From Lachnospiraceae bacterium oral taxon 500 (GTDB lineage Bacteria; Bacillota; Clostridia; Lachnospirales; Vallitaleaceae), in assembly GCA_002999035.1 (NCBI GenBank), contig CP027241.1, forward strand, positions 685,001 to 749,000: 64,000 nt of DNA, read 5' to 3'. Numbering within the stretch: the stretch's first letter is position 1; each line of letters begins with the position of its first letter. The translations under genes were made by a program, and so were the position numbers. Below, one piece after another: positions 2,714 through 50,823 of the stretch. The notes below the pieces were generated by a model. The model saw only the letters and a list, made by a program, of their open reading frames with translations, was not told the DNA's origin and made no database searches.

Positions 2714-3403
2714 TTATTCTCTTTCTTTCCGCTCGGAAAGCGAAACCTTGCCCAGCTTAAAATAACTTCTTTCCTGTCCGGCCTGCAGCGGATCGCCCTG
2801 AATCAGGATAAAAACACCCACCTCGGAATAATCACGGCCGAATAAGGTGGCTGTATGTTCCGGCAGCCGCAGCTCCCCGGTTTTAAGATAGGGCTGTAAG
2901 ATCCGCTCCAACGTTTGTTCCGGCCGCAGCCGGCGACTGCCCTCCGGCTGCTCTCTGTCCTCCGGCAAACTCAGATCTCGATAGGCAACCGCATCCTCTG
3001 ACTGCTCGATTTGATAAAACGGAACTTCCAGTCTTTCCTGCGTAATCTGATCATATAAAATTAAGCCGTCATAGGCGACAAAGCCAATCAGCCGGATCTG
3101 GCGGCTGAACTGTTCTACATCCGCATCCGTTCTCGCATTCAGTGCATACGCAAAGCTGCGGTTAATCGTCTCCCGGGTGGCCTGCTCGGCGATTTCAATC
3201 CGCTGAAGCTGCTTGGCATCATAAAAAAACGGACTATAAGTCTTTAAAGCAAATACTCCGTCCCGCATGGCTCTTGCAGCCGCATTTTCCACAATCATAT
3301 GGTTTCTCTCCGCCAAGCTGTACTGCCGAACCTGCACAAAAGAAATAAATAAAAACGGTAACAGAATTAACACCCCGATAACTCCGATTTTCAAGCTATT
3401 CAT
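2714..3403 (-). CDS. Single-pass membrane protein, Tad cluster A
   Basis: This 229-residue protein has one N-terminal hydrophobic segment (about residues 6-24, IGVIGVLILLPFLFISFV) and a long outward domain. That is the layout of TadE/TadG-like pseudopilins, though no family motif could be confirmed. Start 3403 is chosen because GGAGGG lies six bases upstream; the stop of the preceding gene overlaps it as TGATG, which implies translational coupling. It is the last gene of cluster A. The domain has an unusual number of charged residues and ends SERKERE. Function unknown; a minor pilin or assembly factor is inferred from position only. Confidence 0.75.
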   Translation of the reverse strand: MNSLKIGVIGVLILLPFLFISFVQVRQYSLAERNHMIVENAAARAMRDGVFALKTYSPFFYDAKQLQRIEIAEQATRETINRSFAYALNARTDADVEQFSRQIRLIGFVAYDGLILYDQITQERLEVPFYQIEQSEDAVAYRDLSLPEDREQPEGSRRLRPEQTLERILQPYLKTGELRLPEHTATLFGRDYSEVGVFILIQGDPLQAGQERSYFKLGKVSLSERKERE

Positions 3404-3903
3404 CACAATCCCTCCGCCCGAATCAGCCCACCGCTGCGGGTGACAATCGCCGCTCCCTCCTGCCGGAAACCCAAAACTGCTTTTAGCTGCTGAAACGGCG
3501 TTTTCGACGTATTTTCCACACTGATATAAAAGAAATCACCCAAATCCATCTTATATTTCCCATTCTCTTTGATTTGCCGGTAAATTTCCGCGTTATAATC
3601 CCCCTCGTAATAAATCTGCATTTCCTCTTCTGCTTCATTAGCCACATAACTTTTCCGCAAATGCGAAAGCGTAATCCGGTAAGACGCACCGGTCGCCCCC
3701 AAGAGCGCCTGCAAACCGGTCAGGGAACTTTCTTCAATATAGCCCAGTTCACAAATTAAATCAGCGGTTTTCTGCGTTTCCAGCCAAATCAACTGATAAT
3801 TGATATCCTCCTGCCGCTGGTACTGATAATAAACCGGCACCACAAACAGCAGCACCGTAATCATCAGCAGTGCCAGCAAGCGATCCAGCGCACTGATTAT
3901 CAT
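3403..3903 (-). CDS. Single-pass membrane protein, Tad cluster A
   Basis: This protein has 166 residues when read from the ATG at 3903. That start has GGAGGATAGAGGA in front of it and overlaps the upstream stop as ATGA. A hydrophobic helix covers about residues 8-26 (LLALLMITVLLFVVPVYY) and is followed by an outward domain of about 140 residues. It is the middle of three coupled genes of the same layout (3900-4292, 3403-3903, 2714-3403). No conserved family was recognised. The repeated layout of short cytoplasmic tip, one helix and outer domain suggests a set of minor pseudopilins for cluster A. Confidence 0.75.
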   Translation of the reverse strand: MIISALDRLLALLMITVLLFVVPVYYQYQRQEDINYQLIWLETQKTADLICELGYIEESSLTGLQALLGATGASYRITLSHLRKSYVANEAEEEMQIYYEGDYNAEIYRQIKENGKYKMDLGDFFYISVENTSKTPFQQLKAVLGFRQEGAAIVTRSGGLIRAEGL

Positions 3904-4292
3904 TCCTCTATCCTCCATTTGCCGTCCGACTGGTAAATTTGAAAGCGCCGCTTTTGCAGTTGTTCCTGCTGCCGCCGGTCAGCCAAAAAGGCATCCGCCT
4001 CCGGCAGTACCTTAACGCCTAAAACCTCCGCCCCAAACTCCGGCCAACGATACTCTTGACCGGCAAAACAAATGATTTCTTCTTTTTTTCCGGCTAAGAC
4101 TCCCAGCCGCGCCGCCAGCTCCAGCCCATCGCATTGATCGCGCAGCCGGGCATCCGGATTGATCTCGGCTGCCACTTCTTTGGTTTTAAGGAGTTCGGTC
4201 AGGCGATAGTTTTCATAAAGCTGCACGGATAGGGCAATCACCACCAGCAGTACGGCAATCGCCGTGTCCAGTAAGTCAAATATTTTCTCCAT
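3900..4292 (-). CDS. Single-pass membrane protein, Tad cluster A
   Basis: A 130-residue protein that begins MEKIFDLLDTAIAVLLVVIA, so the helix starts near residue 8. The frame extends four codons upstream to a TTG, but the AAAGG site touches that codon and fits the ATG at 4292 better. The N-terminus resembles that of TadE/TadG-like or holin-like small membrane proteins, without a recognisable pilin cleavage site. It is the first of three overlapping genes and is separated from the pilin-like gene at 4746 by about 450 bp of non-coding DNA, so it may have its own promoter. Function unknown. Confidence 0.7.
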   Translation of the reverse strand: MEKIFDLLDTAIAVLLVVIALSVQLYENYRLTELLKTKEVAAEINPDARLRDQCDGLELAARLGVLAGKKEEIICFAGQEYRWPEFGAEVLGVKVLPEADAFLADRRQQEQLQKRRFQIYQSDGKWRIEE

Positions 4293-4304
4293 TTCACGGC
4301 TCAA

Positions 4305-4745: not shown

Positions 4746-5228
4746 TTACTGCTGCTCAAACGTAATCCCCTTGATTACTTCATTTTTATCATACACTAAC
4801 TGTGCGTAAAAACTGGCGGTCGGATTGATATAAGCATTGTTTTTACTGTCGTTGGCCGCTTTGATTTGCTTATCAATATCGCCGCGGGATTTCTGGCTCA
4901 AATCACCAACCGTATTGTCCGCGGAAATACTGCCGCCGCTGACATAAACATTGGTACTGGCCTTCGTCTTAACGCTGATGATAAACTCACCGCTTTGATC
5001 GGCATAGAGTTTAATCGCGCTCAGCACGTCCGCCCCCGAGGTCTTAGCATTATTATACGGTGCAAAACTGGACTCGGCCAAGTCCTTGCTGACCTTATCC
5101 AACTGCTGACTGCTGGCCTCCGCCACTCCTCGTCCCTTGTTGTAAAGGCTAAGCCCCGTACTGACAATTCCGATAAAAAGTAAAATCCCCACTCCCAGCC
5201 ACAACGCCTTTTGAATATTTTGATCCAT
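4746..5228 (-). CDS. Pilin-like single-pass protein of Tad cluster A
   Basis: A 160-residue protein with an N-terminal helix (about residues 9-28, LWLGVGILLFIGIVSTGLSL) and a small, Ser/Thr/Asn-rich outward domain. The region after the helix (YNKGRGVAEASSQQLDKVSKDL) resembles small Tad-locus proteins of Clostridia that automatic pipelines often mislabel as permeases. The start at 5228 follows AAAGGAGGACAAA. It comes after the TadB/TadC-like gene. Size, helix position and polar outer domain make it the best major-subunit candidate of cluster A, but no prepilin cleavage motif is evident and no prepilin peptidase lies in the window. Confidence 0.7.
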   Translation of the reverse strand: MDQNIQKALWLGVGILLFIGIVSTGLSLYNKGRGVAEASSQQLDKVSKDLAESSFAPYNNAKTSGADVLSAIKLYADQSGEFIISVKTKASTNVYVSGGSISADNTVGDLSQKSRGDIDKQIKAANDSKNNAYINPTASFYAQLVYDKNEVIKGITFEQQ

Positions 5229-5343: not shown

Positions 5344-7233
5344 TCACAGCTGTTGATAAAACTGATTGAGGCTTTCCATGCCGCTGTAAATCATCGGAAT
5401 GATTAAATACAGCGCAATCAGCCCATAGGCCGGCAAAAAGCCAATCATTTCCCCCATCGCCAAGCGCTTGGCAATCATCTGCCGGTTAATTTCCTTGCGC
5501 CGCTCCAAATAATAAGCCTTTTCATGCACCAAATCATCAAATGCCTGCTGCAGCGACAAATCCTTGGCCGCCGCTTCCAGCTGCAAAACCAATGTTTGAA
5601 AATCCGCTTGTTTTTCCACCTTTAGCTCGGCAAAGGCCTCCTCTGCCCCCATGGAAAAATTATTCAAACACCGCTCAAACCTTTCCTCATAATAATGGGC
5701 AAACATATTCAGCCACGTTAAAATATCCTCCATCCCCAAGCGGGTATGATGCATCAACATCAATAAAATGCTGCGGTAGGCCGCCACTTCATCCTCTCTT
5801 TCCATTTCCCTGACTCGGCCGGCCAATGCATCCGCCAGCAAGTACCAATAGCCAAGTGCAAAAGACAGCGTCGCCAGCACCGCTATCTGCCACAGCTCCA
5901 GCCATGGTCGGTGCAGCTGCCGGTATTTTTCATATAATTGGTTGACATAGCGGTCTAAGCCCTTTCCCTGTAAGCCCGACAACTCCGGCAGCTTTTCCGC
6001 TTGCGCCCGCAGAACCGCTAAAACGGCCGCTTTTTTCAGCCGCGGATTCAGTCCGTCCAGCCACTCCGCTTCTTTTGCCCGCAGAACTTGACGATATTCT
6101 TCCCCGCCGCCAAAAAACATTGTGTTTTCCAAGACCGACGTCTGCCGGATACGATTATGCTCCTGCCAGTTAATGAAAAAAATAAGCAGCAGCCCGACGC
6201 CAAAGCTGATGAAGCGAATCCGCCGCTTACGCATCGGAATTTCCGTTTCCCGGCGCCGCTCCGCTCTTTCTTCGGAGATAATGCCGATATTTTGAATTTT
6301 CCGCAACATCATCACCACGGACAAAATCAAACAAAACATAACCAGCTCCGTTATCCGGCCGAAACGGCTTTGATAAAAGAGCCGGAGCGGCTCAAAATTG
6401 CGGCTGGCCCAATTTTGCAACGGCAGCATGCACAGCAGCGGCAAAACCGCAATAAAATGCAGGCTTTTCAGGGAATAATTCAGCCGCTCGCGCTTTAATT
6501 CCTCGACCCGCAGTTCATCCGTCAAATGGCTTAAACTGCCCATAAAAACGCTTTGTCCGTTCATCTGACTATCGCCGTATTCGGCAGTGATATAGCAAAG
6601 GTTAAGCAGCATTTTCAAATACTTATTCGGTGCCTGCTGATTATAACGGCGAACCGCTTCTTCCACATCGCTTTCCATCAGGACATCATACAAATATTCC
6701 CCCTGAATCAGCATCGGCGAGGTTTTATCCGGAAACTCCTGACAAGCCTCGTAAACAGCCTCCTCAACCGTCCCCTGCTCATAATATTTTTGCCGTACCA
6801 GCTCGTCAAATAAAATCTGGCCTTGCAGCAGCTGATTATGCCGCTTAACCAGCACATAATCAACAAACACCTCAATCAGAACCAGTATGACAAAAACATA
6901 CATCCCCAAATACACCAGGTTGCGGGTCAGGAATAAAAGACCGCTCAAAAGAATCAAAAACGCTAACATCAGCTTTCGAAAAAAATCACCGGTTTTTTCC
7001 AGCAAAGCCCCTTCCCGCAGCCGGGTCAATTGCTTCAGGCTATATTGATAGCGAAACAGGAGCGAGCGGCTGTAACGGAAGCGCCGCAAAAAGCGATAAA
7101 CCCGCAGGTTCATCGGATGCGGCAAATCACTTTGCGTTTTGGTTTTCGGCCGGCGCGGCCGCCGGCTGTACCATAGGGCGACAACAAATAAAATCAATGC
7201 CGCCGACCAAATGCTAATCTGTAAATTCTCCAT
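5344..7233 (-). CDS. TadB/TadC-like membrane platform protein, apparently fused
   Basis: The protein has 629 residues, about twice the length of TadB or TadC, with roughly eight hydrophobic segments in two groups. Residues about 90-130 and 290-325 flank a first cytoplasmic helical domain. Residues about 345-360, 460-485 and 600-625 flank a second one that ends MIGFLPAYGLIALYLIIPMIY, the terminal-helix style of T2SF proteins. This suggests one chain doing the work of both inner-membrane platform proteins. It overlaps the ATPase gene by 20 bp and starts after GGAGGATGATAAAA. Relation to T2SF is inferred from layout and context; sequence likeness is weak. Confidence 0.7.
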   Translation of the reverse strand: MENLQISIWSAALILFVVALWYSRRPRRPKTKTQSDLPHPMNLRVYRFLRRFRYSRSLLFRYQYSLKQLTRLREGALLEKTGDFFRKLMLAFLILLSGLLFLTRNLVYLGMYVFVILVLIEVFVDYVLVKRHNQLLQGQILFDELVRQKYYEQGTVEEAVYEACQEFPDKTSPMLIQGEYLYDVLMESDVEEAVRRYNQQAPNKYLKMLLNLCYITAEYGDSQMNGQSVFMGSLSHLTDELRVEELKRERLNYSLKSLHFIAVLPLLCMLPLQNWASRNFEPLRLFYQSRFGRITELVMFCLILSVVMMLRKIQNIGIISEERAERRRETEIPMRKRRIRFISFGVGLLLIFFINWQEHNRIRQTSVLENTMFFGGGEEYRQVLRAKEAEWLDGLNPRLKKAAVLAVLRAQAEKLPELSGLQGKGLDRYVNQLYEKYRQLHRPWLELWQIAVLATLSFALGYWYLLADALAGRVREMEREDEVAAYRSILLMLMHHTRLGMEDILTWLNMFAHYYEERFERCLNNFSMGAEEAFAELKVEKQADFQTLVLQLEAAAKDLSLQQAFDDLVHEKAYYLERRKEINRQMIAKRLAMGEMIGFLPAYGLIALYLIIPMIYSGMESLNQFYQQL

Positions 7234-9013
7234 TTTTTATCATCCTCCGGCACCCTTCCGTAAATAAAGCAAACTCCTCCTGATCTTCTGCCGTCATTGC
7301 GCGGCTCATGGCTTCCAGGTTTTTGGAAGTGGGCAAGTTTTTAAGTTCATAGCCGCCATTATGATAGACCATCATATCCTGCAGCCGGTAGCCCGTCTCT
7401 TGCGGGATAATCTCGGTAATTCTTTCCACATAGCGGTTGCCGGCATAGTCCTTGCCCAAATGAATATCAAATTGAATAACTTCGGTGACTTGCTCCTCGG
7501 CCACGACCTCATCCCGAAAAATATTGCACTTTAAAAGCGAATTGCGAAGCGACAGCACTAAATCGGCCGTAGTTTTGGCATGATGGGTAAACAAAGTGAA
7601 TAGAGAAGCCACCTGTGCGGTTTGCAGCATCAGCGCCGCCACCTCGTCGGTTGCGACCTCGCCTAAAATATTGACCGCGCCGTCGGTTTTTTTCTGCAAA
7701 TCAAGACCGGCCTGACCGGACACAAACTCGGTTTCCCGAAAGGTTAAAATATTGCGCATCGGATAGACTTTGCGCAGATGCAGCTCAAAGGCCATTTCCT
7801 GAATCCGCAGCGTCAGCGTGCCGTAAATATGCTTGATCAGCGCCATCAAAAGCGTTGTCTTACCGCTTCCCTGCGAGCCGGTAATCGCCATAATCCGGCC
7901 ACCCTTAACCAAATAGCGAAGCCAAGCCGCCAAGAGTTCTGCTCCCGGTCCGGCAAAAAGCTGATCGATCTCCAATTTTTTAATATGAAACTTACGGACG
8001 AAAAATGCCCAGCTCTCGGAAAACGGCGGCCGCACCACTACCACCCGCGAGCCGTCGCGCATATCATTGACCTTGTAGCCGATATTTTCCGACAGCTGCC
8101 CGGCCTTGTTATAGCGATAAATGTTTTGGCAGACCCGGCGCAGCTCTTTTTCCGACTGAAAACTCAAAAACGCCAGATGAATGGGCTTGCCCCGGAAGAA
8201 AATCCAAACGCTGTCATAGTTGCGGTAGGTCTGTTCCTTTAGCACATCATCCCTTTCCTGCCAAAAATAATTTTCCAGCTTCTGCTTGAACTCATTGCCG
8301 ACCTCTTCATTGATTTTGCCGGACACCCCGCCGGATACGCCGTCAATCGCCATATCGCGCAGCCGGTCAACCACACCGAAGCCTTTATAATAGCGGTAAA
8401 TCTTATGCGCCAGCAAAATACACTCTTCCTCATGACTCAGCTCGATGTTTTCGGCGGCGTAAATTGCTCGGATTTCTTCGACGGTGATAATATAGGACGG
8501 TGTTTCTCCGTTTTCAATCACATTTTTCGGCCGGTCTAACCGATATTTTTCAATCAGCACCTCCAGTCCTTTCTCCTGATGTTCCTGCTCATAGTGATAC
8601 AGCAAAATATCAAACATATCCTCCAGCGATAAGGCTTCCGCATCCTGATAAGGCACAATGGCATAAACCGCATCCCGGCTCGGCAGCAGGCGCAGAATAA
8701 TGTCCTTAATCATTTCAATCACATAGGTCTTATCGCTTCGATAGCCGTAACCGCACTGCTTCAGTGCGAGTTTTAAATGGCTGCACCGGCTCTTGGCTCG
8801 TTCGTACTCTTCGCTTTGCTCCTTATAGTCCAAATATTTTTTAGTTTCCTCGTATAATTCTTCCTTCACCAAAGCAAACAGGCGGTCAAAGCTGATTTCT
8901 TCCGCTCTTTTTTGATTTTGGCGCAGAAGCTTTCTTTTTTCATACTGAAAAACCCCCTGAAACAGCCCCGCTGCGGCCGCTGCCGCCAGTCCCGGCCATA
9001 AAGCCTCCATCAT
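7214..9013 (-). CDS. TadA/CpaF-like secretion ATPase, divergent
   Basis: The protein has 599 residues. The C-terminal half is a type II/IV secretion ATPase with Walker A TGSQGSGKTTLL near residue 376, an Asp-box-like RIQEMAFELHL, Walker B in NILGEVATDEV, and a His-box-like LFTLFTHHAKTTADL. The first 200 or so residues form an extra N-terminal region that starts with an Ala-rich hydrophobic stretch and continues with charged helices. Orthodox TadA (such as the 418-residue one at 39827) lacks this. The ATPase would power pilus assembly or secretion at the membrane. It overlaps the genes on both sides (ATGA upstream, 20 bp downstream), indicating tight coupling. Confidence 0.85.
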   Translation of the reverse strand: MMEALWPGLAAAAAAGLFQGVFQYEKRKLLRQNQKRAEEISFDRLFALVKEELYEETKKYLDYKEQSEEYERAKSRCSHLKLALKQCGYGYRSDKTYVIEMIKDIILRLLPSRDAVYAIVPYQDAEALSLEDMFDILLYHYEQEHQEKGLEVLIEKYRLDRPKNVIENGETPSYIITVEEIRAIYAAENIELSHEEECILLAHKIYRYYKGFGVVDRLRDMAIDGVSGGVSGKINEEVGNEFKQKLENYFWQERDDVLKEQTYRNYDSVWIFFRGKPIHLAFLSFQSEKELRRVCQNIYRYNKAGQLSENIGYKVNDMRDGSRVVVVRPPFSESWAFFVRKFHIKKLEIDQLFAGPGAELLAAWLRYLVKGGRIMAITGSQGSGKTTLLMALIKHIYGTLTLRIQEMAFELHLRKVYPMRNILTFRETEFVSGQAGLDLQKKTDGAVNILGEVATDEVAALMLQTAQVASLFTLFTHHAKTTADLVLSLRNSLLKCNIFRDEVVAEEQVTEVIQFDIHLGKDYAGNRYVERITEIIPQETGYRLQDMMVYHNGGYELKNLPTSKNLEAMSRAMTAEDQEEFALFTEGCRRMIKNGEFTD

Positions 9014-9732
9014 TTCCGCCGCTCCTCCCCTCCGCCGACAAACTTGGCAAACTGCCTGTATTCCGTTTCCCAGTTACCGTACTTTCGTTTGACATAATCC
9101 AGCAGACTGCCTTCATTCAGCGCATCAAAGAGCTCATAGGAAAAGGACAGACTTAAAACATCGGCCGCCGCAATCTCTTTGGCCAAACGCTTTTTCGTCC
9201 AGCGGCTGTCCGAAAAATATTGGCCGAAGAGCAGAAGCGGAAGCCGCCCTCGTTCAAAACTGAGGCTCCGCCCCTGCAGAGCTTCCCTAATCGCCGCCGG
9301 TGACTGCGGCAGGCAAAGGACTAATTTATCCACGCTCCGGCTCATTTCGATTTCCCGGCTCAAATCAGCAAAGACATAGCCGTAGCCCTCACCGGCCTTT
9401 TCCAGCAAATACTCATACAAAACCTGCTTATATTCGCCTTCCTTGCTGTCAACAAAAGAAGCATCCAAATAATCAAGACCCTTCATTAACGGCAAACTGT
9501 AATCTTTGAGCAGCTGCGTAGTCAGCTGACCGTTGACCGCCAGCCGGAGCAAATCCGCTCTTTTTTTGTCTGCGTCCTCCAGGGTCAAGCCCAAATAATA
9601 ATCCGCCTTGACCGGACGGCGGCTGATCAGCAAATGCTGTTTTTCGCTGTACTGGGCAAAGATCCCCGCCATAAAACATAATTGACTGGTCAGCTTTCCC
9701 CGGCCGGTAATGTCCGCCCATCCGATAATCAT
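9010..9732 (-). CDS. MinD/TadZ-like protein with atypical P-loop
   Basis: A 240-residue protein. Its opening, MIIGWADITGRGKLTSQ, followed by an amphipathic helix, has the layout of the deviant Walker A of MinD/ParA proteins, with GK and T kept but the GGxGKTT pattern lost. YGYVFADLS near residue 120 sits where the Walker B strand (DYVIIDL) belongs, and LVLCLPQSP matches the following strand. The family assignment rests on this order of elements. The start overlaps the preceding stop (ATGA) and lies behind GGAGG. TadZ-like proteins locate Tad machines at poles; whether this one binds nucleotide is unclear. Confidence 0.6.
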   Translation of the reverse strand: MIIGWADITGRGKLTSQLCFMAGIFAQYSEKQHLLISRRPVKADYYLGLTLEDADKKRADLLRLAVNGQLTTQLLKDYSLPLMKGLDYLDASFVDSKEGEYKQVLYEYLLEKAGEGYGYVFADLSREIEMSRSVDKLVLCLPQSPAAIREALQGRSLSFERGRLPLLLFGQYFSDSRWTKKRLAKEIAAADVLSLSFSYELFDALNEGSLLDYVKRKYGNWETEYRQFAKFVGGGEERRK

Positions 9733-10322
9733 GGCCGCAGCCTCCTTTCCTGACCAAAATATTTTTTGCTTTGCCTCGGCAGTGCACCGGCCACTTGCCC
9801 CAAAAGACGCAGCAGCGCATTTTTATAGTCACCGGAAAGCGGCTCCAACTGATAATAACCGTCAAACAAAGCCTCATCGGCAAGCAGCTTATCAATCTTA
9901 TCCCATTCCACCGTCAGCAGCTCAAACTTAGTGTTTTCCGATTTTTCCGCAATTTGCTTGCTTAAATACTTTTGGTTGAGTGCCGATTCGTGGATATGGC
10001 TGCCGTAAACAACGGTAATTTTTTCCGGCTTTTCTCTTGCCAGATATTCTAAAAACGCCTGAATCTCCGGCCGATACGGCGTCAGATAACAAACCGTCTG
10101 CTCCGCCTGCACGACCGGAAGTTCCGTCTCCACCAGGCACTGCTCCTGTCCGCGGTAATCCCGAAGCGGATAAACGGTCAACGCATCGGTATAATCTTCT
10201 GCCTGCCCGGCATAATGCTCGGAATACATTTCATATTTGCCGTAATGAATGGCCGCCAGCGTCGCCAGACTATACACAAATTGTCTTTTGGCAGCGGAAT
10301 CTTGTCCCAATATTTGCATCAT
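9729..10322 (-). CDS. Unknown cytoplasmic protein of Tad cluster A
   Basis: The ATG pair at 10322 is preferred as start (197 residues) because AAGGAGAGG precedes it; a longer frame reaches back into the CpaB-like gene but has no ribosome site. No known domain was recognised. The N-terminus (MMQILGQDSAAKRQFVYSLA) has a loop-then-helix layout that could be a fully eroded P-loop like those of its neighbours, but this is speculative. VVYGSHIH near residue 110 suggests a Rossmann-type strand. It lies 10 bp after the CpaB-like gene and overlaps the next gene, so it belongs to the same transcript. Confidence 0.65.
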   Translation of the reverse strand: MMQILGQDSAAKRQFVYSLATLAAIHYGKYEMYSEHYAGQAEDYTDALTVYPLRDYRGQEQCLVETELPVVQAEQTVCYLTPYRPEIQAFLEYLAREKPEKITVVYGSHIHESALNQKYLSKQIAEKSENTKFELLTVEWDKIDKLLADEALFDGYYQLEPLSGDYKNALLRLLGQVAGALPRQSKKYFGQERRLRP

Positions 10323-10332
10323 AGTCCTCTCC

Positions 10333-11328
10333 TTAAAAGCTTTTTTCTTTGTCGGCGGCAGTTGAATTATTGTTTTCCGGCTGAGCGGGGGCGGTTTCCC
10401 TGTCCGCTGCCGGCGTCTGCTCACTCACGTCGGCCGGTTCGGCTTTGTTCCTATCTGCTTCGGAAAAGCTTTGTAAGTTTTTGTCCCGGCTGTCTGCCGC
10501 TTCTTTTTCTCTCAATACTCCCGCTTCAGCCGGCTGCTCCTGACCGATTCGTTCCTGCATTTTTAAAAACTTTTCTTCTGCTTTCAGCTGGGTCAAAGCC
10601 GCTTCCAGCCGGTTTCTCTCCTGTCCGACAATGGCACTTTGCGCCACATCCTCGTATAAAGGCTGAACCGAGCCACTGACCGGATAACGGACAATGGTAT
10701 CCGGCATATCAACGGCTTTGGGATAAATGGTTAAATACAAATATGCTCTCTCATAGGTTTGAACATCAATTTGGGCGCTGCCCAGCCGAACCCTTTCTTC
10801 CTCCGTTAAGCCCAGTACAATTTTCTTTTTATCCGCATCCAGTCCGCCGGCCTGTTTATGCGACAGTACGCAGTAATCATGACCGCTGGGAAACAGAATC
10901 CTGACATCAACATAATCGCCCGGCAAAAGTTCAGCCGGAAGCTCGGACACTTCCACCTCCTGCGTATTTTGCCAAAACTCCAAATTGGTTTCATAAAAAA
11001 ATTCTGGCTGTAACATTACCCGCGGTTTTAAGGCCACCCAGGTCTTACGGCCGATTACTTCCTCCGGCAGGGTAAAGACTCCGGCCGGAACCGCATCCTC
11101 TTCCACTTCCATTTCCGCTAAATCCGCTTCTGCAATCACTTCACCCAATTCTATCGGCCGACTGACGGTCAGCACCGTGCACCGCACTGCCGGCAAAAGC
11201 TTGTCGGTGCTGGCTGCCTGCCAGTACTGATAGCCAAAACTCCCGCCGGCACCAATCACAATTCCTAAAACAACCAAACCTACTGTTTTTAACGCGCTCC
11301 GAATCATCCCCATCTTCCGCAATGTCAT
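10333..11328 (-). CDS. CpaB/RcpC-like SAF-domain pilus assembly protein
   Basis: The protein has 331 residues. A membrane helix (about residues 14-34, TVGLVVLGIVIGAGGSFGY) is followed by a SAF domain (about 47-115: CTVLTVSRPIELGEVIAEADL, then FTLPEEVIGRKTWVALKP). After that comes an RcpC-type region with LPGDYVDVRILFPSG. The last 100 residues are a charged coiled coil and a low-complexity Pro/Glu/Asn tail. CpaB/RcpC proteins act in the periplasm or outer zone of Tad machines. This is the only CpaB homologue in the window, so cluster B may rely on it. The start at 11328 has GGAGGGATAAGGGC upstream. Confidence 0.8.
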   Translation of the reverse strand: MTLRKMGMIRSALKTVGLVVLGIVIGAGGSFGYQYWQAASTDKLLPAVRCTVLTVSRPIELGEVIAEADLAEMEVEEDAVPAGVFTLPEEVIGRKTWVALKPRVMLQPEFFYETNLEFWQNTQEVEVSELPAELLPGDYVDVRILFPSGHDYCVLSHKQAGGLDADKKKIVLGLTEEERVRLGSAQIDVQTYERAYLYLTIYPKAVDMPDTIVRYPVSGSVQPLYEDVAQSAIVGQERNRLEAALTQLKAEEKFLKMQERIGQEQPAEAGVLREKEAADSRDKNLQSFSEADRNKAEPADVSEQTPAADRETAPAQPENNNSTAADKEKSF

Positions 11329-11482
11329 GCCCTTATCCCTCCTGTCTTACTCTTGATTTTCCCCAAATAAAAATTCTTAACGCAAAGTCAGCCTGAAAGT
11401 TTATCTTTTATTATATGAATGCACTGCTCAACTCCTTATAAACAGGAATAAATCTTTTTCCGGTCGCCAAAGGCAGACTGCG

Positions 11483-12076
11483 TTACTGAAATATTTTCCA
11501 CACCCACTCCCGCTCTTCTTTTTTGGAAGCAAAGGGATCTTTCCAAAAAGGAAAGGCATAAATCCCGCCCTGATATTTTTTACGGAAAAAGGCCAATTCT
11601 TCCGGTGTCCCGAAATTAACCATTACCTTTAGCCGCGAACCAACCGCCTCTTCCAGCTTTTTTATCTCGGTCAGCGCCCGGGCGGCTTTCCATTCGCTGC
11701 CGCTGACAATCAGGAGCGGATAATCGGCCTCGGCAAAATAGGCATTGGCATGACTGCCGATATCGGCAATCACAAAATCATAATTTTCCTTTTTTAGGCT
11801 GGCCAGTCCCTTTTCCTGATAACTTTTGTAATAATCCACCCGCCGAATACGAAAGACCTGCTTGTTTTTATCCTCGTAGCCAAAACCGGCAAATATCTTT
11901 TCAATCTCCTCCAACTCCCGGTGCGAGTTCCATTCAATCAGCGCCACTCGCCCGCCGCTTAGCGCCAAAGCATTCGCCAGGCACAAACTGATATGGGTTG
12001 CTCCCAAGCCCCGATCAATCGTTCTGACCGCAATGGTTTTGACAATCCGGTTTTGCTTTTTCTCCTGCCCAAACAT
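11483..12076 (-). CDS. TadZ/CpaE-like protein with degenerate P-loop
   Basis: A 197-residue protein shaped like a short MinD/TadZ ATPase. After a basic tip comes VRTIDRGLGATHISLCLANA near residues 17-37: the canonical KGGVGKTT is replaced by DRGLGATHI, so the P-loop lysine is missing. VALIEWNSH follows where MinD has its VLLIDLD strand, and FVIADIGSHANAYF sits at the Walker B position. Loss of the catalytic Lys is known for TadZ-like proteins, which act as polar markers and not as ATPases. The start at 12076 follows AAAGGAGA. It lies between the kinase fusion and the CpaB gene. Confidence 0.75.
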   Translation of the reverse strand: MFGQEKKQNRIVKTIAVRTIDRGLGATHISLCLANALALSGGRVALIEWNSHRELEEIEKIFAGFGYEDKNKQVFRIRRVDYYKSYQEKGLASLKKENYDFVIADIGSHANAYFAEADYPLLIVSGSEWKAARALTEIKKLEEAVGSRLKVMVNFGTPEELAFFRKKYQGGIYAFPFWKDPFASKKEEREWVWKIFQ

Positions 12077-12274
12077 GAGGCCCGTCTCCTTTCATCCCTA
12101 TGTTTATCCAATCTCATTAAAAGTAACTTATCTTACTCAACTTTCCCCTGATTGAAAGCTTTGCTTGTTGCCCAGGTATCATTCAGTTACGCAAAAAGGA
12201 AAAGTTTTTTTGCAAACCCTAAATATCAAAATGCTCTGTTTGGCACAAGCTCTCAACTGACTTTACCAGCAGCT

Positions 12275-13684
12275 TTATTTTTGGGGATTGAACCAAACTA
12301 TCCCCTGTATTTTGGTCCTTATCTTATCAAAAATGGGCGCCGCCTCCGCCTGCTGCTTTTCCTCCTGTCCGCTCTCAGCAAAGGCGCGCATACTTTTTTG
12401 ATAAGGAAACAGTTCAAACCTTGTGTCCGGATACTCGCACTTTAACTCGGCTAAGCGGCTCTCATCCGCCAAGTTTAAAATAAAGCAGCCATCAATCAGT
12501 TTTTCATTAAAAATCACTTCATCTAAATCGACCATATCCCAAGCGGCACCGGCCACGACAAATCGAAGCTGTTCCTGAAACGGCCGCAGGATTTTGCGCT
12601 TCTCTTGAGTCAAAAGTCCGTAATCAATGAAAATCCGGTCGTATTCCTGCCATTTCAGCGGTAGCCTGTTATCCTTATTGCCTGGAAAAATCTCCAGGTC
12701 GTTAAGCATAAAGGAATCCTTTTTTACCTGCACTTCCGAGGAAGTATAAACTAATTTGGCAATCTGCTGGCTTTCACTCCAGTCCAATAAAGCTGTTTTT
12801 CCGCCTTCAGCCGCCGCCCGAAAGGCATGAGCACAGGCAACAAAGCTCGTGCCCACTCCCCGCCGAATGCCCAAATACACTTCGGCCTGCTCCGGCAGCG
12901 TCGCCGGCCCTGCTTCCTTTTGCTGCAATTCCTTTAACTGTCCGCAGATTTCGCTGAAACTGTCCGGTCGCCTCTCCCGCTGCGGTTCGCTGCAGCGATA
13001 AATCAGCGCAATTAAGTCCTCGGCATAGAACTTACTCCAATTTTCCGGCTCCAGCCGCTTGTAGGGCGGATCACTGATTTTATGGCGGCTGATTAAATAA
13101 TATAAGGTCATGCCGTAAGCATAAATATCCGATTTTTCATCACTGCGCAGCACCCCAAACTGTTCCGGCGCAGCGTAAGCCTTTGTGCCCAAGAAAAGTG
13201 TGTCTTTTTTCCTTTCCGGTGTGGCATAACGGGCGATACCAAAATCAATTAAAAACAGGTTCTGATTTTGATCCAAAATAATATTTTCCGGCTTTAAATC
13301 CCGGTAAATAATCGGATTTTCCAGCCCTTCATGCAGATAGCGCAAAACCTCCGCCAGCTGTTCGGCAACCCGCAGTACCTCGGCTTCTTCTATTCTTTCC
13401 TTGCCGGCCGCCCATTCTTCCAAGTTTTGCCCCTCGGCATACTCGCGAATTAAAAAAATAAAGTCATCATCCTCAAGCACATCAATAATTTTGGGGATAT
13501 TGGCATGCGACAGCTCCTTTAAAATGTCCACTTCCGCCAACTGAAAGTTTTCCTGTTTTTTCATCTGCTTGATAATCCGCTTGCTATGTAAGCTTTGATT
13601 TTCCGTCAAATAGACCGTATTGTTTTCGCTTTGATGCAAACATTCCAAAATTAGGTATTTCCCGCAAATTATCTGTCTTTCCAT
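12275..13684 (-). CDS. Ser/Thr protein kinase fused to a degenerate TadZ/MinD-like domain
   Basis: The protein has 469 residues from the ATG at 13684; a start three codons upstream is possible but lies too close to the AGGAG site. Residues about 5-255 form a Hanks-type kinase with Lys39, Glu in EVDILKEL, YRDLKPEN at 127-134 (Tyr for His), DFG at 147-149 and APE at 172-174, so catalysis looks intact. From about 268 a second domain starts LGIRRGVGTSFVACAHAF, a MinD-like P-loop with Thr in place of Lys, followed by TALLDWSES and YDRIFIDYG. It is the first gene of cluster A, directly behind the shared promoter. It may phosphorylate pilus components and be localised by its own TadZ-like tail. Confidence 0.85.
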   Translation of the reverse strand: MERQIICGKYLILECLHQSENNTVYLTENQSLHSKRIIKQMKKQENFQLAEVDILKELSHANIPKIIDVLEDDDFIFLIREYAEGQNLEEWAAGKERIEEAEVLRVAEQLAEVLRYLHEGLENPIIYRDLKPENIILDQNQNLFLIDFGIARYATPERKKDTLFLGTKAYAAPEQFGVLRSDEKSDIYAYGMTLYYLISRHKISDPPYKRLEPENWSKFYAEDLIALIYRCSEPQRERRPDSFSEICGQLKELQQKEAGPATLPEQAEVYLGIRRGVGTSFVACAHAFRAAAEGGKTALLDWSESQQIAKLVYTSSEVQVKKDSFMLNDLEIFPGNKDNRLPLKWQEYDRIFIDYGLLTQEKRKILRPFQEQLRFVVAGAAWDMVDLDEVIFNEKLIDGCFILNLADESRLAELKCEYPDTRFELFPYQKSMRAFAESGQEEKQQAEAAPIFDKIRTKIQGIVWFNPQK

Positions 13685-13762
13685 TCCGCCCATTCTCCTA
13701 ATTGATTTAATTCAAAATCCCTAACTTATAATCTTATTACCTTATTATTTTATCGCTTTTTT

Positions 13763-15772: not shown

Positions 15773-17071
15773 CTATTTTAAAGCGGCACTGAAAACTTCA
15801 CTTAATTTTTCCAGATTTTCCAAATAATTCGGCGCCAGCGGTTCTAATTCCATAACTTCGCCGCCGATTTCCGAGGCGATGGTTTTGGCCTGATTATTGT
15901 CAAACTCCTTTTGATAGAAAACGACTTTGATATTGTTGTCCTTGGCATAGTCAATGACCGCTTTCAAATGCTCGGCTGTTGCCTGCTTGCCTTCTTTTTC
16001 AATCGAAACCTGCATTAAACCGTAATCATCGGCAAAATAGCCCATGGACGGATGCATGATAATAAAGCTGTTTGCCTTGGCTTGCGATAATGTATCCTCT
16101 AATTTTTTATCGGTTTCTCTCAGCTTCTGCAAATATTCCTCGGCATTGCGGCGATAGGTCTCGGCATTCTTGTCATCCGCCGCTATCAAGGCATCCCGAA
16201 TGGCCTCGACCATGACCACTGCCCGCTTCGGCGACATCCAGACATGCGGGTCCCGGCCGCTGTGATGATGATGCTCATGTTCTTCTTCGCTTTCGTGGTC
16301 ATGGGCGTGTTTATGCTCGGCTTCTTCTTTATGCTCATGCGCGTGATCATGGTCAGCTTCTTCTTTATGTCCATGAGCTCGATCATGCTCAGCTTCTTCT
16401 TTGTGATCCGAACTATGCTGATGAGAAACGGCTTCTTTATGCTCATGACCTGTTTCTTCTTTATGTGCATGGTCAGCCGATTCCTCCTTATGCTCTGCCG
16501 CCGCTTCTTTATCATGATTATGCGCCGGTTCTGCCACCTCCTTATGATCGTGATCATGAGCCGCTTCTTCCTTATGATTATGCTCGTGTTCGTGGCTGTG
16601 CTCATGGTCGTGGTCATGTTCCTCTTCGCCAAAAGACAGCTCCGGATATTTGGCCGCCGCTGCTGCTGCCAAATCAACTATCTTTGCCTTCGTCGCTGTA
16701 TTCGGAATAATTCCTTCCACCTCAACCGGCACGGAAATTGTAAAATATAAATCCGCTTCTTCCAGGGCAATCATTTCCTTCGGACTGGCCTGATAAACTT
16801 CCGGACTGGCTCCCGGAGGCAGCAGCGCCGTCACTTCCGCTAAATCGCCGGCCACCGCCTTGACCCATTCCACCTGCGGCAAAATCGTTACCACTGTCTT
16901 TAATTTTGTTTCTGCCTTAGTTTCGGTTTTCGACTCCGTTTGGCTTGCCGCCATTTGCTTATTTTCCGCCTGCGGCGCACTCTTTGCCTCTTTTTTGCCA
17001 GCCTCACTGCCGCAGCCTGCCAGTGCTATAACTAACAGCAAAGCCATCATTATACTAAATAATCTTTTCAT
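15773..17071 (-). CDS. znuA: Zinc-binding lipoprotein with a very long His-rich loop
   Basis: A 432-residue cluster A-1 solute-binding protein. The lipobox LALAGC puts the lipid on Cys20. A low-complexity linker (residues 22-57) is followed by the N-lobe (VVTILPQVEWVKAVAGD, LLPPGASPEVYQ). Then comes a loop of roughly 115 residues (about 150-270) made almost entirely of HDHEH/EHKEEA repeats, far longer than in most homologues. The C-lobe starts GRDPHVWMSPKRA and holds IIMHPSMGYFADDYGL. The loop probably senses or buffers zinc. The start at 17071 follows GGGAGGAAAGA. An operator and a strong promoter lie just upstream. Confidence 0.93.
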   Translation of the reverse strand: MKRLFSIMMALLLVIALAGCGSEAGKKEAKSAPQAENKQMAASQTESKTETKAETKLKTVVTILPQVEWVKAVAGDLAEVTALLPPGASPEVYQASPKEMIALEEADLYFTISVPVEVEGIIPNTATKAKIVDLAAAAAAKYPELSFGEEEHDHDHEHSHEHEHNHKEEAAHDHDHKEVAEPAHNHDKEAAAEHKEESADHAHKEETGHEHKEAVSHQHSSDHKEEAEHDRAHGHKEEADHDHAHEHKEEAEHKHAHDHESEEEHEHHHHSGRDPHVWMSPKRAVVMVEAIRDALIAADDKNAETYRRNAEEYLQKLRETDKKLEDTLSQAKANSFIIMHPSMGYFADDYGLMQVSIEKEGKQATAEHLKAVIDYAKDNNIKVVFYQKEFDNNQAKTIASEIGGEVMELEPLAPNYLENLEKLSEVFSAALK

Positions 17072-36180: not shown

Positions 36181-36777
36181 TTATCCGTTCCCACCATCCC
36201 CCGCCTGCCTGACTGCCGCCAAATAATCCCGCAGCACCAGTTCCCGCTCTTCCTTCATCATTTCCATTTGCAGAAAGAGCCGTGCCTGTTTTTGAAAGAG
36301 TTTTCTAAAAAAATCCAAATCTTGCAAGCCGTCTTTATCCCTAAGTGGTAAATAGCAAAACCGCCATTCGCCGCTTTCCGGAAAATAGGCTGCCGCGCCT
36401 GGCCCGATTTGCAGTCCTTCGGTTGTTAACAGGTATTCCGGTAAAGTTCGCTCCAATTCCAGAAGCTGACGAACATAGGCTTCCGGCTGCTCCATTACCT
36501 GTCTTTCACCAAGCTCTGCCGCCGTAAGGTCAAAATCTAAAATTGCCTGCCCGCCCTGCCAATGAAGCACCGGCCTGTGCAAGCCTTTAATATCACAGTA
36601 TTGCAGCATTTTCAGTTCATATTCTTTCAGTTCCGTCCGGGCAAAGCAAAAGCGCTTCACTTTCCGTCCTCCGCAGTTCAAAAGTATTTCACCTGATTTC
36701 GGCCAAATCAGTGGTTCTCTTTTCTCTTCGTTTCTATTCTCTGTTTTTTCCTCTGCCTTCCCCTCTGTCCGGTTCAT
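36181..36777 (-). CDS. DUF6382-like protein of Tad cluster B
   Basis: A 198-residue protein. After a charged tip, residues about 30-190 resemble the DUF6382 domain found at the N-terminus of FHA proteins in clostridial Tad loci (YELKMLQYCDIKGLHRPVLHW, AILDFDLT, LLTTEGLQIGPGAAAYFPESGEWRFCYLPL). No FHA domain follows, so it is a short form. A full version would read Thr-phosphorylation signals, which is notable because cluster A encodes a Ser/Thr kinase. The start at 36777 follows AAGGAGG. It is the last gene of cluster B. Confidence 0.65.
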   Translation of the reverse strand: MNRTEGKAEEKTENRNEEKREPLIWPKSGEILLNCGGRKVKRFCFARTELKEYELKMLQYCDIKGLHRPVLHWQGGQAILDFDLTAAELGERQVMEQPEAYVRQLLELERTLPEYLLTTEGLQIGPGAAAYFPESGEWRFCYLPLRDKDGLQDLDFFRKLFQKQARLFLQMEMMKEERELVLRDYLAAVRQAGDGGNG

Positions 36778-37082
36778 TGCTGCCTCCTTACTCGCTCAAT
36801 TTTCCCCATATTTTTCCCCTCTTTTCTTTTTTCCTTTTTTTCTCCTATTTTCTCCTATTGAAAGCTTTTTCCTTTTCTTACAAATACGCAGCCAACCAAA
36901 AGCCTGATTCATGTTTGTGAAAAGATGCTGCCCATCAGGATTTCCGCACCCCGGGCGATTACCGTTTCGTGCTTCCGACCAAAGGCATGGACTCGCATAA
37001 ATTGCGCTCTCGCCGGCGTCATCATTCATTGTTGTTTGCCGCCGGCGAAAATCTCTCGGATTCTGCGTTTTTTCGGCGTTTA
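36778..37082. other. Non-coding gap inside Tad cluster B
   Basis: The 305 bp between the Flp-like gene and the DUF6382 gene hold a pyrimidine-rich tract (36795-36860) and the hairpin CGCCGGCG/CGCCGGCG at about 37009-37046. In related loci TadE/TadF-like genes often lie in this position; none is readable here. Confidence 0.55.
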
Positions 37083-37352
37083 TTATGGTTTTGGCTGCGC
37101 ACCCAGTTCTTTAATATCAATTCCGTTAAAAATACTGTCTAGCAGCCTAAAAATCTGGACTTTAAAGGCAAACGCCAGCGCTACGATTACCACGATGATT
37201 AAAGCAATCTCGACAATGCCCATGCCCTTATTATTGCCTAAAACCTGCCTAATTCGTCCTAAAGACTGCTGCTGCCAAACAAGCCACCGGCATTGCTGCC
37301 GCAGCACCCAATTCCTGCTGTTTTCATAGCTTTTCTGCCTTTTTGTTTTCAT
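37083..37352 (-). CDS. Flp1-like type IVb pilin
   Basis: An 89-residue protein. A basic leader of about 41 residues ends NNKGMG and is followed by IVEIALIIVVIVALAFAF, the conserved Glu and hydrophobic helix of Flp1-like pilins, then a short tail LDSIFNGI. Cleavage would occur at the Gly before Ile, leaving a mature pilin of about 46 residues. The leader is longer than usual, and a later start cannot be excluded. The RBS GGAGG at the ATG at 37352 is good. It is the likely major pilin of cluster B; the peptidase is not in the window. Confidence 0.8.
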   Translation of the reverse strand: MKTKRQKSYENSRNWVLRQQCRWLVWQQQSLGRIRQVLGNNKGMGIVEIALIIVVIVALAFAFKVQIFRLLDSIFNGIDIKELGAQPKP

Positions 37353-37414
37353 TGCCTTTCCTCCTTGCTTGCGTATCCGTTTACCTATGTTTTACACTTA
37401 ATGTAAACCGACCC

Positions 37415-38653
37415 TTATATCCTCTCAAAGGCCGGAAACATCGTTAAAATAATGATAATTATCAGGAACAGCAGCATCGGAAACAGCAGGCGCGAGGTTG
37501 TTTTCTGCATATACTCATGCCCCTGCCGCAGCCGATCGGCAAATAGCTTATCTTTTAGCTGTTCCAAATACAAAATGCTTTGCTCATCCCCTCTTTCCTG
37601 CGCCATCAGCAGCAGCCGCTCAAACTGCTGAATATCCGGCAGCGGACAAACCCGATAAAACACCTGAATCACGGCAGCAAACGGCTCCTGATGATATAGT
37701 CCCTGTCGGCAGGTGTCCAGTGCCAGTACAAACTCCGGACCAAAACCGGCCGTGCTGCCGCAAATGCCGCTGATTGCTGCAAACGGACTCTTGCCGCATT
37801 TTAAGAGCAGTACCAAATGCTGCATCATTTGAGTAAAATCCCTTAAATATCTTTTTTCCCGCTCTTTTTGCTTTTCCCGAGCCGCCGCCCGCGACAAAAT
37901 AGATAAAAATAGGACGGCAATCACAAAGCCCAACATCATACCGCCAAAACTGCCCCCGCTTTGCAGCGCTGTCCAGTGCAGCCGCCCGCCCGCTACTTCT
38001 CCCGGTAAGATCAACTCCGGTGTTTTCTCCTTCTCTAAGTTTGTAATTACCAGTTTTAACTGTTTCGTTAAGAGTTTTTGGACATATTCTTCCGTAAAAT
38101 CTTCTGCCCGCAAGGTTTCCGCAACTTCGACCGCGGCTCTTTCCTCCTGATACCGCAAAACCGCTCTGATTTTGATTTCTCTTTGCCGCTTCGTCCGAAA
38201 CAGTTCAAAATAATTCCACTCTCCTTCCGCCAAAAATAAATCTGCCGGCTGGTATTGATATTCCACCTCAATCCCCCGCCACCGGTTTGGCAAGTATCTG
38301 GCTTTTTCAATTTTGGCTTTCCCATCCCGCTGCAATATTTTCACCTGAAACTCAGCCGCTGCTGCCTCTAATTTGCGGCGAATAATTTCTCTCGCCTCGT
38401 CCTTTGTCCCTAAATGAATCGGCAAACTTCCGGAAAACTGCTTTTCTCCCTGATACCGATAGCTTAAAACCACATTTTTCTCCGCTTCCTGAAAATCCGG
38501 CCGCGCCAGTGCGCTGATTTTTTGATTGTCCCGGCTGCAAAAAGAGAGCAGCCCGATCAGCGGCAGAAGCAGCAGTAAAATCAAAATCTCCCTTTTCTTT
38601 TCCGGAAAAAAGAATTGCAGCACCGCCCGTGCTTTATCTCGTATTTTTTCCAT
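37415..38653 (-). CDS. tadC: TadC-like platform protein with an extra outward domain
   Basis: The protein has 412 residues. A first helix (about 22-38) is followed by about 190 residues of polar, beta-rich sequence predicted to lie outside, then a helix near 235-258. A T2SF helical domain follows (LRDFTQMMQHLVLLLKCGKSPFAAI, MAQERGDEQSILYLEQLKDKL), and a final helix ends LLFLIIIIILTMFPAF. Orthodox TadC has no large outward domain, so this insertion is unusual. The start at 38653 has GGGGGAAG upstream. A repeat block separates it from tadB. Confidence 0.8.
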   Translation of the reverse strand: MEKIRDKARAVLQFFFPEKKREILILLLLLPLIGLLSFCSRDNQKISALARPDFQEAEKNVVLSYRYQGEKQFSGSLPIHLGTKDEAREIIRRKLEAAAAEFQVKILQRDGKAKIEKARYLPNRWRGIEVEYQYQPADLFLAEGEWNYFELFRTKRQREIKIRAVLRYQEERAAVEVAETLRAEDFTEEYVQKLLTKQLKLVITNLEKEKTPELILPGEVAGGRLHWTALQSGGSFGGMMLGFVIAVLFLSILSRAAAREKQKEREKRYLRDFTQMMQHLVLLLKCGKSPFAAISGICGSTAGFGPEFVLALDTCRQGLYHQEPFAAVIQVFYRVCPLPDIQQFERLLLMAQERGDEQSILYLEQLKDKLFADRLRQGHEYMQKTTSRLLFPMLLFLIIIIILTMFPAFERI

Positions 38654-38698
38654 CTCTTCCCCCTTTCGTCCAGTATTTTTCTGCTTCCCGGACTTAAC

Positions 38699-38876
38699 AA
38701 CTCAATTTTCCCATAGTCTTTTTTGGCACTATCCCGCTTGGAAAGCGGGTACATGGACTCACTCTCGCGAGTTGCTTCGCAAATCGCATTCCGTTCCTGC
38801 CCGCCGCCGAAAGGCGTAGCCTTTCTGGAAACAACGAGCCTAAAAAAGACTGTTCTGTCGAACATAGGAAAGTGGC
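38699..38876. mobile_element. Cloverleaf-type palindromic element, copy 2
   Basis: This copy of the element at 43220-43372 is diverged and enlarged by an extra AAAGGCGTAGCCTTT hairpin. The left end ACTCAATTTTCCCAT and the CCCGCTT/AAGCGGG and GCGAGTTGC/GCAAATCGC hairpins are kept; the right end is weaker. It lies between tadB and tadC. Confidence 0.75.
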
Positions 38877-38880
38877 ACAC

Positions 38881-38950
38881 ATTTCTGCGCGGGCGCGCAT
38901 CCTGCCCTGGTCGAAAGCTCCGCTTTCTGCGCGGGCGCGCATCCTGCCAA
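38881..38950. repeat. Two tandem short hairpin repeats
   Basis: The segment TTTCTGCGCGGGCGCGCATC occurs twice, with TCGAAAGCTCCGC between the copies. The second copy ends a few bases from the tadB stop. The same repeat type occurs three times at about 42530-42650. Confidence 0.75.
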
Positions 38951-38952
38951 AA

Positions 38953-39903
38953 CTATATCTCTATCTGCGTCATACTGTAACATAAATATGCCGCCAAAAG
39001 ATAAATCCCCAAACACACCCCCATCACCATCCGGCCCTGCAAGGTCTGATACATCACCTGCCGAAAATTGGGCGAAAGCGCCTTCAAATAAAGGAGCAGA
39101 AACGGAACGAATAAAGTCAGCAGCCGGCTTTCGTATTTAACCTTGGTCAGCATACTGCTGATTTCTTTTTCCATTTGCAGCTTTTTTTGAATTTGAATCA
39201 GGCTGTTCTGCATCAGTTCATGCAAGTTGCCGCCGCTTTGCAGACTGGATTCCAGTGCCGCCGTAAAATATTTCAATCCTTCCATCGGCTTCTTTTCGGC
39301 CAGTTCGCTAAAAATATCGGCTGCCGAAACATTCATCTCCAGCTTCTGAACTATCCAATCCTCAGCCGCAAACAGTCCCCCGCCGCGCAGCGCCTCGCTC
39401 ATCCCTGACTCCAGCGATCGGCCTAAACGAATCTGACTGTCCAATTCCGTTAAATACTTGCCAAAATCCTCCTCCCATTTTTGCTTTCGCCTTTGCTCCA
39501 TTTCCTCGGCTGCCCGCTCCTCGGTAAAAACGAGAACCGGCAGCAGCAGTGCACCTAAAATCAAACTTTCAAAAAAGAGCCAGCCCAGCAGTAAGACAAC
39601 TGCTCCACCCGCCGCATAAAAAATGACTTTTTCCTTGGCTGTCAACCGCAATTTCGCTCTGTTTCCCTTTGTCCCTTTGCTTTTCTGCCTTGATTCGTCT
39701 ACTCCTGCGGCTTTTGTCTGCTCCGGCTTTTGCTGCCGATTTTTGTGCCAAAACCGGCACCCTTTTGCCGCGCCTGCCCAATTCCCTTTCTTTGTTTCCG
39801 GTGGGCAACTTCCGGCTGTTTCCGGCTTACGCTTTTCGGAGTCTTGTCCGCCGGTTTCTGCCAGCCACGCTTTTATTCGACTTTTTTTCCATATCCCCGT
39901 CAA
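38953..39903 (-). CDS. tadB: TadB-like platform protein
   Basis: The protein has 316 residues if it starts at the TTG at 39903, which has AGGTGG about eight bases upstream; this overlaps tadA by 77 bp and the start is uncertain. The first 75 residues are basic and hydrophilic. Then come paired helices (VIFYAAGGAVVLLLGWLFFESLILGALLLP), a T2SF domain (FGKYLTELDSQIRLGRSLESGMSEAL, TAALESSLQSGGNLHELM) and two final helices. It would form the membrane platform with TadC. Confidence 0.82.
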   Translation of the reverse strand: MTGIWKKSRIKAWLAETGGQDSEKRKPETAGSCPPETKKGNWAGAAKGCRFWHKNRQQKPEQTKAAGVDESRQKSKGTKGNRAKLRLTAKEKVIFYAAGGAVVLLLGWLFFESLILGALLLPVLVFTEERAAEEMEQRRKQKWEEDFGKYLTELDSQIRLGRSLESGMSEALRGGGLFAAEDWIVQKLEMNVSAADIFSELAEKKPMEGLKYFTAALESSLQSGGNLHELMQNSLIQIQKKLQMEKEISSMLTKVKYESRLLTLFVPFLLLYLKALSPNFRQVMYQTLQGRMVMGVCLGIYLLAAYLCYSMTQIEI

Positions 39904-41083: not shown

Positions 41084-41201
41084 GTGTACCTCCTTACGGC
41101 ACCGATTTATCACCCTGCAAAGCCCAGGCCCGATAAAGGTACAAACATCTTGCCTAAACCTTTATCCGATAAGCCAAGCGGTTTACCGCCGCACTTTTCT
41201 T

Positions 41202-50776: not shown

Positions 50777-50823
50777 TATACTTTCTCCCTTCATTATACT
50801 AAAATATTCTGTTCGATACAACT

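Follow-up and report, generated by a model that had tools for sequence, protein, structure and literature searches.

The window analysed here, a stretch of 64,000 nucleotides from Lachnospiraceae bacterium oral taxon 500 (contig CP027241.1, positions 685,001 to 749,000) that sits in a single-contig genome of 3.2 Mb, carries an operon in which the gene of a TadA-like motor ATPase is accompanied by four MinD/ParA-like modules, two assigned by predicted fold and two by sequence profile. The Walker A motif is canonical in none of the four, and its changes are conserved by family. We judge it an even matter whether this operon encodes a Tad-like machine in which the role of TadZ/CpaE is split over several MinD-fold proteins and a Ser/Thr kinase is docked on the scaffold of the motor. 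The operon lies on the minus strand, as do all of its features given below, and runs from 13693 down to about 2714 in the order kinase fusion, protein A, SAF/CpaB-like protein, protein B, protein C, TadA-like ATPase, 629-aa membrane protein, pilin-like protein and three membrane-anchored proteins. Here, the Kin tail is the C-terminal tail of the kinase, A and B are two 197-residue proteins, and C is a 240-residue protein. By TadA, the nearest named relative is Clostridiales bacterium COT-073 (80% identity); Anaerotalea alkaliphila and a Vallitaleaceae metagenome-assembled genome (MAG) belong to the same family.

Identification of the MinD-like modules

The kinase fusion (12275..13693, 472 aa) joins a Ser/Thr protein kinase (Pfam Pkinase, residues 27-208, E 4e-39) to a C-terminal MinD-like tail (residues 274-433, 12395..12874), and protein A (11483..12076) is a standalone MinD-like protein. 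A and the Kin tail belong to a single sequence family, as iterative profile searches started from either of them arrived at the same 84 proteins. Single-sequence scans of A, B, and C against Pfam and NCBIfam gave nothing decisive; it was the family alignments that proved decisive. Among the weak Pfam matches, CbiA, AAA_31, and BcsQ led for members of the A family (AAA_31 at E 0.015 for window protein A alone), and AAA_31 led for C (17 of 45 members) and B (5 of 40 members). Family profiles built without the genus of the window recovered the window proteins at E values of 1e-16 (Kin; i-E 1.5e-31 for the Kin tail), 2e-37 (A), 3e-10 (B), and 8e-18 (C). Against PDB sequences, the A/Kin profile matched Soj (2.6e-5) and FlhG (5.4e-5) and the C profile matched the ParA-family protein 3ea0 (2.7e-5); the B profile reached 3ea0 at 0.01 and MinD 4v02 at 0.04, values that unrelated TPRKB matches equal.

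Structures were predicted with AlphaFold2 (AF2) for B (9729..10322) and C (9010..9732), as single chains and from 40-45 aligned sequences. The model of B (pLDDT 86.6, pTM 0.84) had ParF, FleN, and MinD relatives as its top Foldseek matches in the PDB and aligned in VIA-align with ParA 3cwq (Z 14.1) and MinD 4v03 (Z 13.9), while that of C (pLDDT 89.7, pTM 0.88) was matched by the ParA-family ATPase 3ea0 (Foldseek E 5.5e-9), followed by FleN, ParA, BcsQ, and MinD, and aligned with MinD 1hyq (Z 19.1) and E. rectale TadZ 3fkq (Z 15.9). An earlier note, made from the window sequence without database searches, had proposed several MinD-like proteins in one operon, with the product of 9729..10322 (B) as a possible fourth. 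The gene coordinates were confirmed, and the predicted fold of B, which matches ParA/MinD best, bears out its inclusion; two or more folds of another kind, the outcome that would have spoken against the proposal, did not appear, the predicted structures of B and C being MinD-like and A and the Kin tail being so by profile.

Profile-profile comparison (hhalign, full-length alignments) gave probabilities of 97.8% for A/Kin with TadZ, 96.9% for A/Kin with C, 96.0% for A/Kin with B, 95.5% for B with TadZ, 96.0% for C with TadZ, and 72.5% for B with C, against 98.4% for TadZ with ParA as a positive control. When the same three families were compared with CpaB, TadA, the kinase, and the platform protein, the probability never exceeded 3.9%. 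In the profile-profile comparison A/Kin is nearer to TadZ (97.8%, E 7e-13) than to ParA (95.3%, E 2e-8). B, C, and A/Kin make up three well-separated families. Comparisons made with local sub-alignments of B left out its N-terminal half and gave false negatives. The ParA profile includes one stray frame (L091_4598), by which its scores are slightly low if anything; no conclusion rests on it.

Family-specific alteration of the P-loops

The loops read GIRRGVGTS in the Kin tail (residues 275-283, 12845..12871; family motif GxG[VTA]T[HS]) and, as placed by family loop alignments, DRGLGATHI in A (residues 21-29, 11990..12016), GQDSAAKR in B (10284..10307; family G-x-x-[DE]-K-[SR]-D), and TGRGKLTSQ in C (residues 9-17, 9682..9708; family GQxGTTS-like). 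The observation of the earlier note that each MinD-like member has an altered P-loop thus extends to the families, each of which departs from Walker A differently. In the A/Kin loop, GxG[V/T/A]TH, the second Gly and the Thr/Ser after the Lys site are kept in 80/80 sequences and the next residue is His in 70/80; the Lys site itself holds Val, Thr, Ala, Cys, Ser, or Leu and never Lys (0/80), and D105 and G107 of the DxG motif are invariant. The Lys site of the C family is mostly Thr, Ser, Cys, or Ala (Lys in 0/73). The member retaining Lys is B (56/65), but this residue is flanked by Asp/Glu in place of the preceding Gly (49/60) and by Asp two positions later (38/65). A/Kin, C, and B all lack the deviant Walker A with GK[ST] that marks active MinD/ParA ATPases. 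The TadA of the operon has an intact Walker A (GSQGSGKTT), with G379, G382, G384, K385, T386, and T387 invariant, and the ordinary TadZ of the same genome (loci L168/L171; 361 residues) has the intact loop PTGGSGKTS.

Two parts of the earlier note need revision in light of these alignments. To call the proteins eroded is misleading, since within each family the altered loop is a conserved feature. The implied role of C as the likely ATP binder also finds no support, because the K of its GRGKLTS lies one column ahead of the Walker-A Lys site, where the aligned residue is Leu, and is not conserved even within the genus, both sister species having His at that position (GRGHLTS and GKGHLTS). Loss of the Lys lowers the chance of ATP binding without excluding it, because a variant Walker A does not keep E. 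rectale TadZ from binding ATP.

The kinase fusion and the slot that it occupies

The catalytic motifs of the kinase (beta-3 Lys, RD, KPxN, DFG, and APE) are present in 60-61 of 61 homologues, and the enzyme is apparently active. The gene upstream of CpaB-B-C-TadA varies by lineage; most loci have a kinase with an A domain there. In five Cohnella/Paenibacillus-type loci (L108, L111, L120, L125, and L134), the slot is held by a protein of 451-531 aa that pairs a receiver-like N-terminus with a MinD domain, which scored above Pfam cut-offs in the four scanned (L108, L111, L120, and L125; L134 nearly duplicates L111) and carries a canonical KGGVGKT loop in L108, L111, L125, and L134 and KGGVGTT in L120. 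Five Vallitalea-type loci have a divergently transcribed protein that combines a receiver-like N-terminus, an A domain (GTTHT), and a C-terminal transmembrane helix. None of the window proteins described here has the atypical N-terminal receiver domain of TadZ/CpaE: A, B, and C lack any additional domain at the N-terminus, and in the fusion a kinase is found there. We interpret the kinase-A fusion as a TadZ/CpaE whose receiver domain has given way to a Ser/Thr kinase, with B and C as MinD-fold partners. The placing of a kinase fusion in the slot held elsewhere by a receiver-like and MinD protein is new here, and in the open-access literature (subscription journals were not covered) we found neither a kinase-MinD fusion nor several TadZ per Tad locus.

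Distribution and synteny of the operon

TadA proteins of the type found in this operon were detected with high scores in 20 of the 22 genomes of the family, all 22 of which have at least one TadA-relative match, and 284 relatives were identified in other genomes by a pattern scan. The 80 of these that were read come mostly from Paenibacillus and Cohnella and also from Saccharibacillus, Tumebacillus, Fontibacillus, Neobacillus, Thermoclostridium, and clostridial MAGs. Protein C alone gave no match as a query of the genome contigs, and the TadA alignment served as the query instead. The gene order Kin-(A)-CpaB-B-C-TadA-platform-pilin-like is shared by most family genomes and dozens of Bacillota loci. 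Across the pooled loci, where a genome present twice counts once, a kinase bearing an A-type tail occurs in 60; a separate A accompanies it in 12 of these and is missing from the other 48. Nearly all of the pooled loci have B and C. The 4-base overlaps of B with C and of C with TadA in the window, which suit co-production, are also the commonest arrangement in homologues (25/82 for B/C and 22/87 for C/TadA). An apparent fusion of the C and TadA genes in genome G001 (L047, an 845-aa frame) was rejected as a long overlapping frame in a GC-rich genome, where C ends at 9407 in another frame.

Versions of the operon without the kinase include plasmid copies, e.g., in Thermobacillus composti and Alkalihalophilus pseudofirmus; in the former, RefSeq labels C "chromosome partitioning protein ParA" and B "hypothetical". 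Kinase-less B-C-TadA copies were noted downstream of parA-parB-like genes that have variable cargo (L101, L105, L114, L150, L155, and other Paenibacillus/Cohnella loci of this sort) and also on large plasmids, and they look like parts of mobile elements.

Tad-like character of the machine

The proposal that the operon is Tad-like holds up, in that TadA- and CpaB-homologous genes lie beside the MinD-like genes, which is also the gene neighborhood that characterizes TadZ/CpaE. Both homologues are distant members of their families: the motor ATPase (7214..9013) matches TIGR03819 (E 6e-11) and the SAF-domain, CpaB/RcpC-like protein (10333..11328) matches TIGR03177 pilus_cpaB (E 3e-9) below the curated cut-offs, and their matches to Pfam T2SSE (E 8e-6) and SAF (E 2e-6), respectively, are above cut-off. 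That an ordinary Tad locus has one TadZ, as the earlier note assumed, is so in this genome, where the ordinary locus L171 has a single TadZ with GGSGKT intact.

Downstream of tadA, a polytopic 629-aa membrane protein (5344..7233) is, by position and length, a candidate assembly platform. It is followed by a small pilin-like protein with one N-terminal hydrophobic helix (4746..5228; conserved in 84 homologues), a candidate filament or secreted subunit, and by three membrane-anchored proteins at 3900..4304 (small; conserved in position), 3403..3918 (conserved in 80 homologues), and 2714..3406 (placed by its position in the operon as the last gene of the run). The pilin-like proteins of the window and its homologues have an uncleaved-looking N-terminal helix of the MDNNISKALWIGIGILFFIGVVSLGL type, which suggests that the filament, if there is one, is not built from ordinary Flp prepilins; three A24 peptidases are encoded elsewhere in the genome, outside the operon. 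As the platform and pilin-like genes are only candidate Tad homologues, what the operon builds could be either a filament or a secretion device.

Proposed mechanism and alternative explanations

In Caulobacter, six dimers of a single CpaE, which carries a membrane helix, have been fitted around the CpaF hexamer (PMC13170226). By analogy, the MinD-fold assembly encoded here would surround or cap the TadA hexamer, with B, C, and the A/Kin domains dimerising with one another without an ATP switch; a hetero-oligomer of MinD-fold members, as the earlier note envisaged, is plausible. The A-type tail would dock the kinase on the ring, probably with free A as its partner, and the kinase would phosphorylate a component of the machine and so set when it runs. 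The basic C-terminal tails of Kin and B (mean net charge of the last 25 residues +4.2 and +3.7, respectively, as compared to about 0 for A and C) are consistent with membrane contact and may hold the assembly there. As a tentative and somewhat doubtful generalization, the operon may represent a widespread Bacillota class of Tad-like machines in which a hetero-oligomer of MinD-fold pseudo-ATPases that works independently of nucleotide encircles the motor, one member delivers an active Ser/Thr kinase, and phosphorylation replaces the ATP-driven dimer switch.

A number of observations weigh against a kinase-bearing, ATP-independent Tad scaffold. The core machine can evidently do without the kinase, which is absent from the operon in 23 loci and two plasmid loci. 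The receiver-like assignment of the slot-protein N-termini is based on length, position, and sequence pattern, with a weak Pfam match (AmiR_N, E 0.05) for L111 only, and a Pfam scan of the Vallitalea-type slot proteins gave no receiver match. With regard to the Tad identity of the machine, 12 members of the 629-aa platform-protein family had no Pfam T2SSF match, the best match of the 629-aa protein was a weak one to an ordinary TadB (probability 8.6%), and no prepilin-type cleavage site was seen by eye in the pilin-like proteins. Finally, the ATP binding of E. rectale TadZ with its variant Walker A is also the starting point for an unlikely but substantial alternative, i.e., that what remains of the loop backbone and the switch residues still lets the proteins bind nucleotide, so that they act as slow ATP-dependent dimer switches like that TadZ. 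The residues that the A family retains (the invariant loop Gly, the Thr/Ser after the Lys site, D105, and G107) fit this alternative; the complete absence of the Lys from the sampled A/Kin and C sequences, the GK[T/S] kept by the ordinary TadZ of the same genome, and the acidic residues beside the Lys of B argue against it. Decay into functionless paralogues, suggested by the missing canonical loop residues and the weak single-sequence Pfam matches, is refuted and has virtually no probability left, because open frames, synteny, and family-specific loop motifs have been kept across Clostridia and Bacilli.

The members could also form separate homodimers, each with its own partner (B and C as regulators of TadA, and Kin and A as a signalling pair), and no joint hetero-oligomer. 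The 23 loci in which B and C occur without Kin and A indicate that these modules can separate, and the clear separation of B, C, and A/Kin into three families points the same way; however, the genes of B and C lie side by side, stay together from locus to locus, and often overlap with each other and with tadA, and we regard separate homodimers as quite unlikely. An accessory role in a type VII secretion system (T7SS) is highly improbable for the operon. PMC11217815 describes Tad genes adjoining T7SSg and T7SSh, with a T7SSi, similar to T7SSh, from Vallitalea only, and calls the linkage unclear, and EssC is encoded beside the operon in the five Vallitalea-type loci. By contrast, a search of the window's genome found no EssC above cut-off and no WXG100 protein, and EssC scored above cut-off in 7 of the 22 family genomes as compared to 20 for the TadA of the operon. 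The operon is thus present in genomes without a T7SS and does not depend on one, so that an accessory role is refuted as a general dependency. In the Vallitalea-type loci (L051-L055), the EssC-type ATPase gene is near the operon and next to the gene for the receiver-like, MinD-like, and transmembrane protein; the latter may be the TshM/TsiM component, for which PMC11217815 had no confident prediction.

TadZ/CpaE has been described so far as one ATP-binding hub per Tad machine. If the split of its role over several MinD-fold proteins is correct, a conserved set of three to four such proteins without a normal Walker A, together with a kinase in the receiver's position, would mean that the hub can act as a mixed scaffold under phosphorylation control. 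The paralogues, a version of which occurs in Paenibacillus polymyxa, would also be a tractable set for asking whether ATP is needed to position or gate the Tad motor. In addition, the occurrence of the operon in genomes without any T7SS bears on the question of Tad linkage raised in PMC11217815.

Other loci in the window and genome

On the minus strand, 36181-42125 holds a second Tad-like locus. Its genes encode a TadA (39827-41113), a DUF6382 protein (36181-36777), and two T2SSF-like proteins, along with a TadZ-like protein (41202-42125) in which the Lys is again missing from the loop; the loop reads GGIGVS here, and GGIGIS and GGIGVS in sister species. The genome has a third, ordinary Tad locus at 3.07 Mb. 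Outside these loci, two similar adjacent genes (48364-49386 and 49796-50821) have repeated EKRGEKRG segments at their ends and presumably encode relatives of Rpn/PD-(D/E)XK transposase-associated proteins, and a lipoprotein with an unusually long His/Glu-rich insert (15773-17071), which we take to be a metal-binding, ZnuA/TroA-like protein, is encoded beside its ABC transporter genes.

Comparison with known systems

The closest comparison is with TadZ/CpaE of Tad (Flp, type IVc) pili, with which the proteins described here share the MinD/ParA fold, a gene position adjoining tadA and cpaB, and an atypical Walker A; they differ in that each locus encodes several MinD-fold proteins rather than a single one, a Ser/Thr kinase stands where the receiver would be, and A/Kin and C have no Walker-A Lys. 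The fold is also common to the MinD, ParA, FleN, and BcsQ ATPases, but those keep the Walker-A Lys. The Tad genes beside T7SSg and T7SSh in PMC11217815 are similar in that EssC adjoins the operon in Vallitalea-type genomes, whereas the genome of the window has no T7SS and the set of MinD-fold proteins is not described in the consulted part of that paper. Among Tad-like loci, the "no Flp_2" loci of PMC3244431 likewise have distant homologues of tadA, tadZ, and rcpC, and a prepilin cleavage site is not recognisable in them either; the present operon has a kinase fusion and several MinD-like genes, neither of which the consulted part of that paper mentions.

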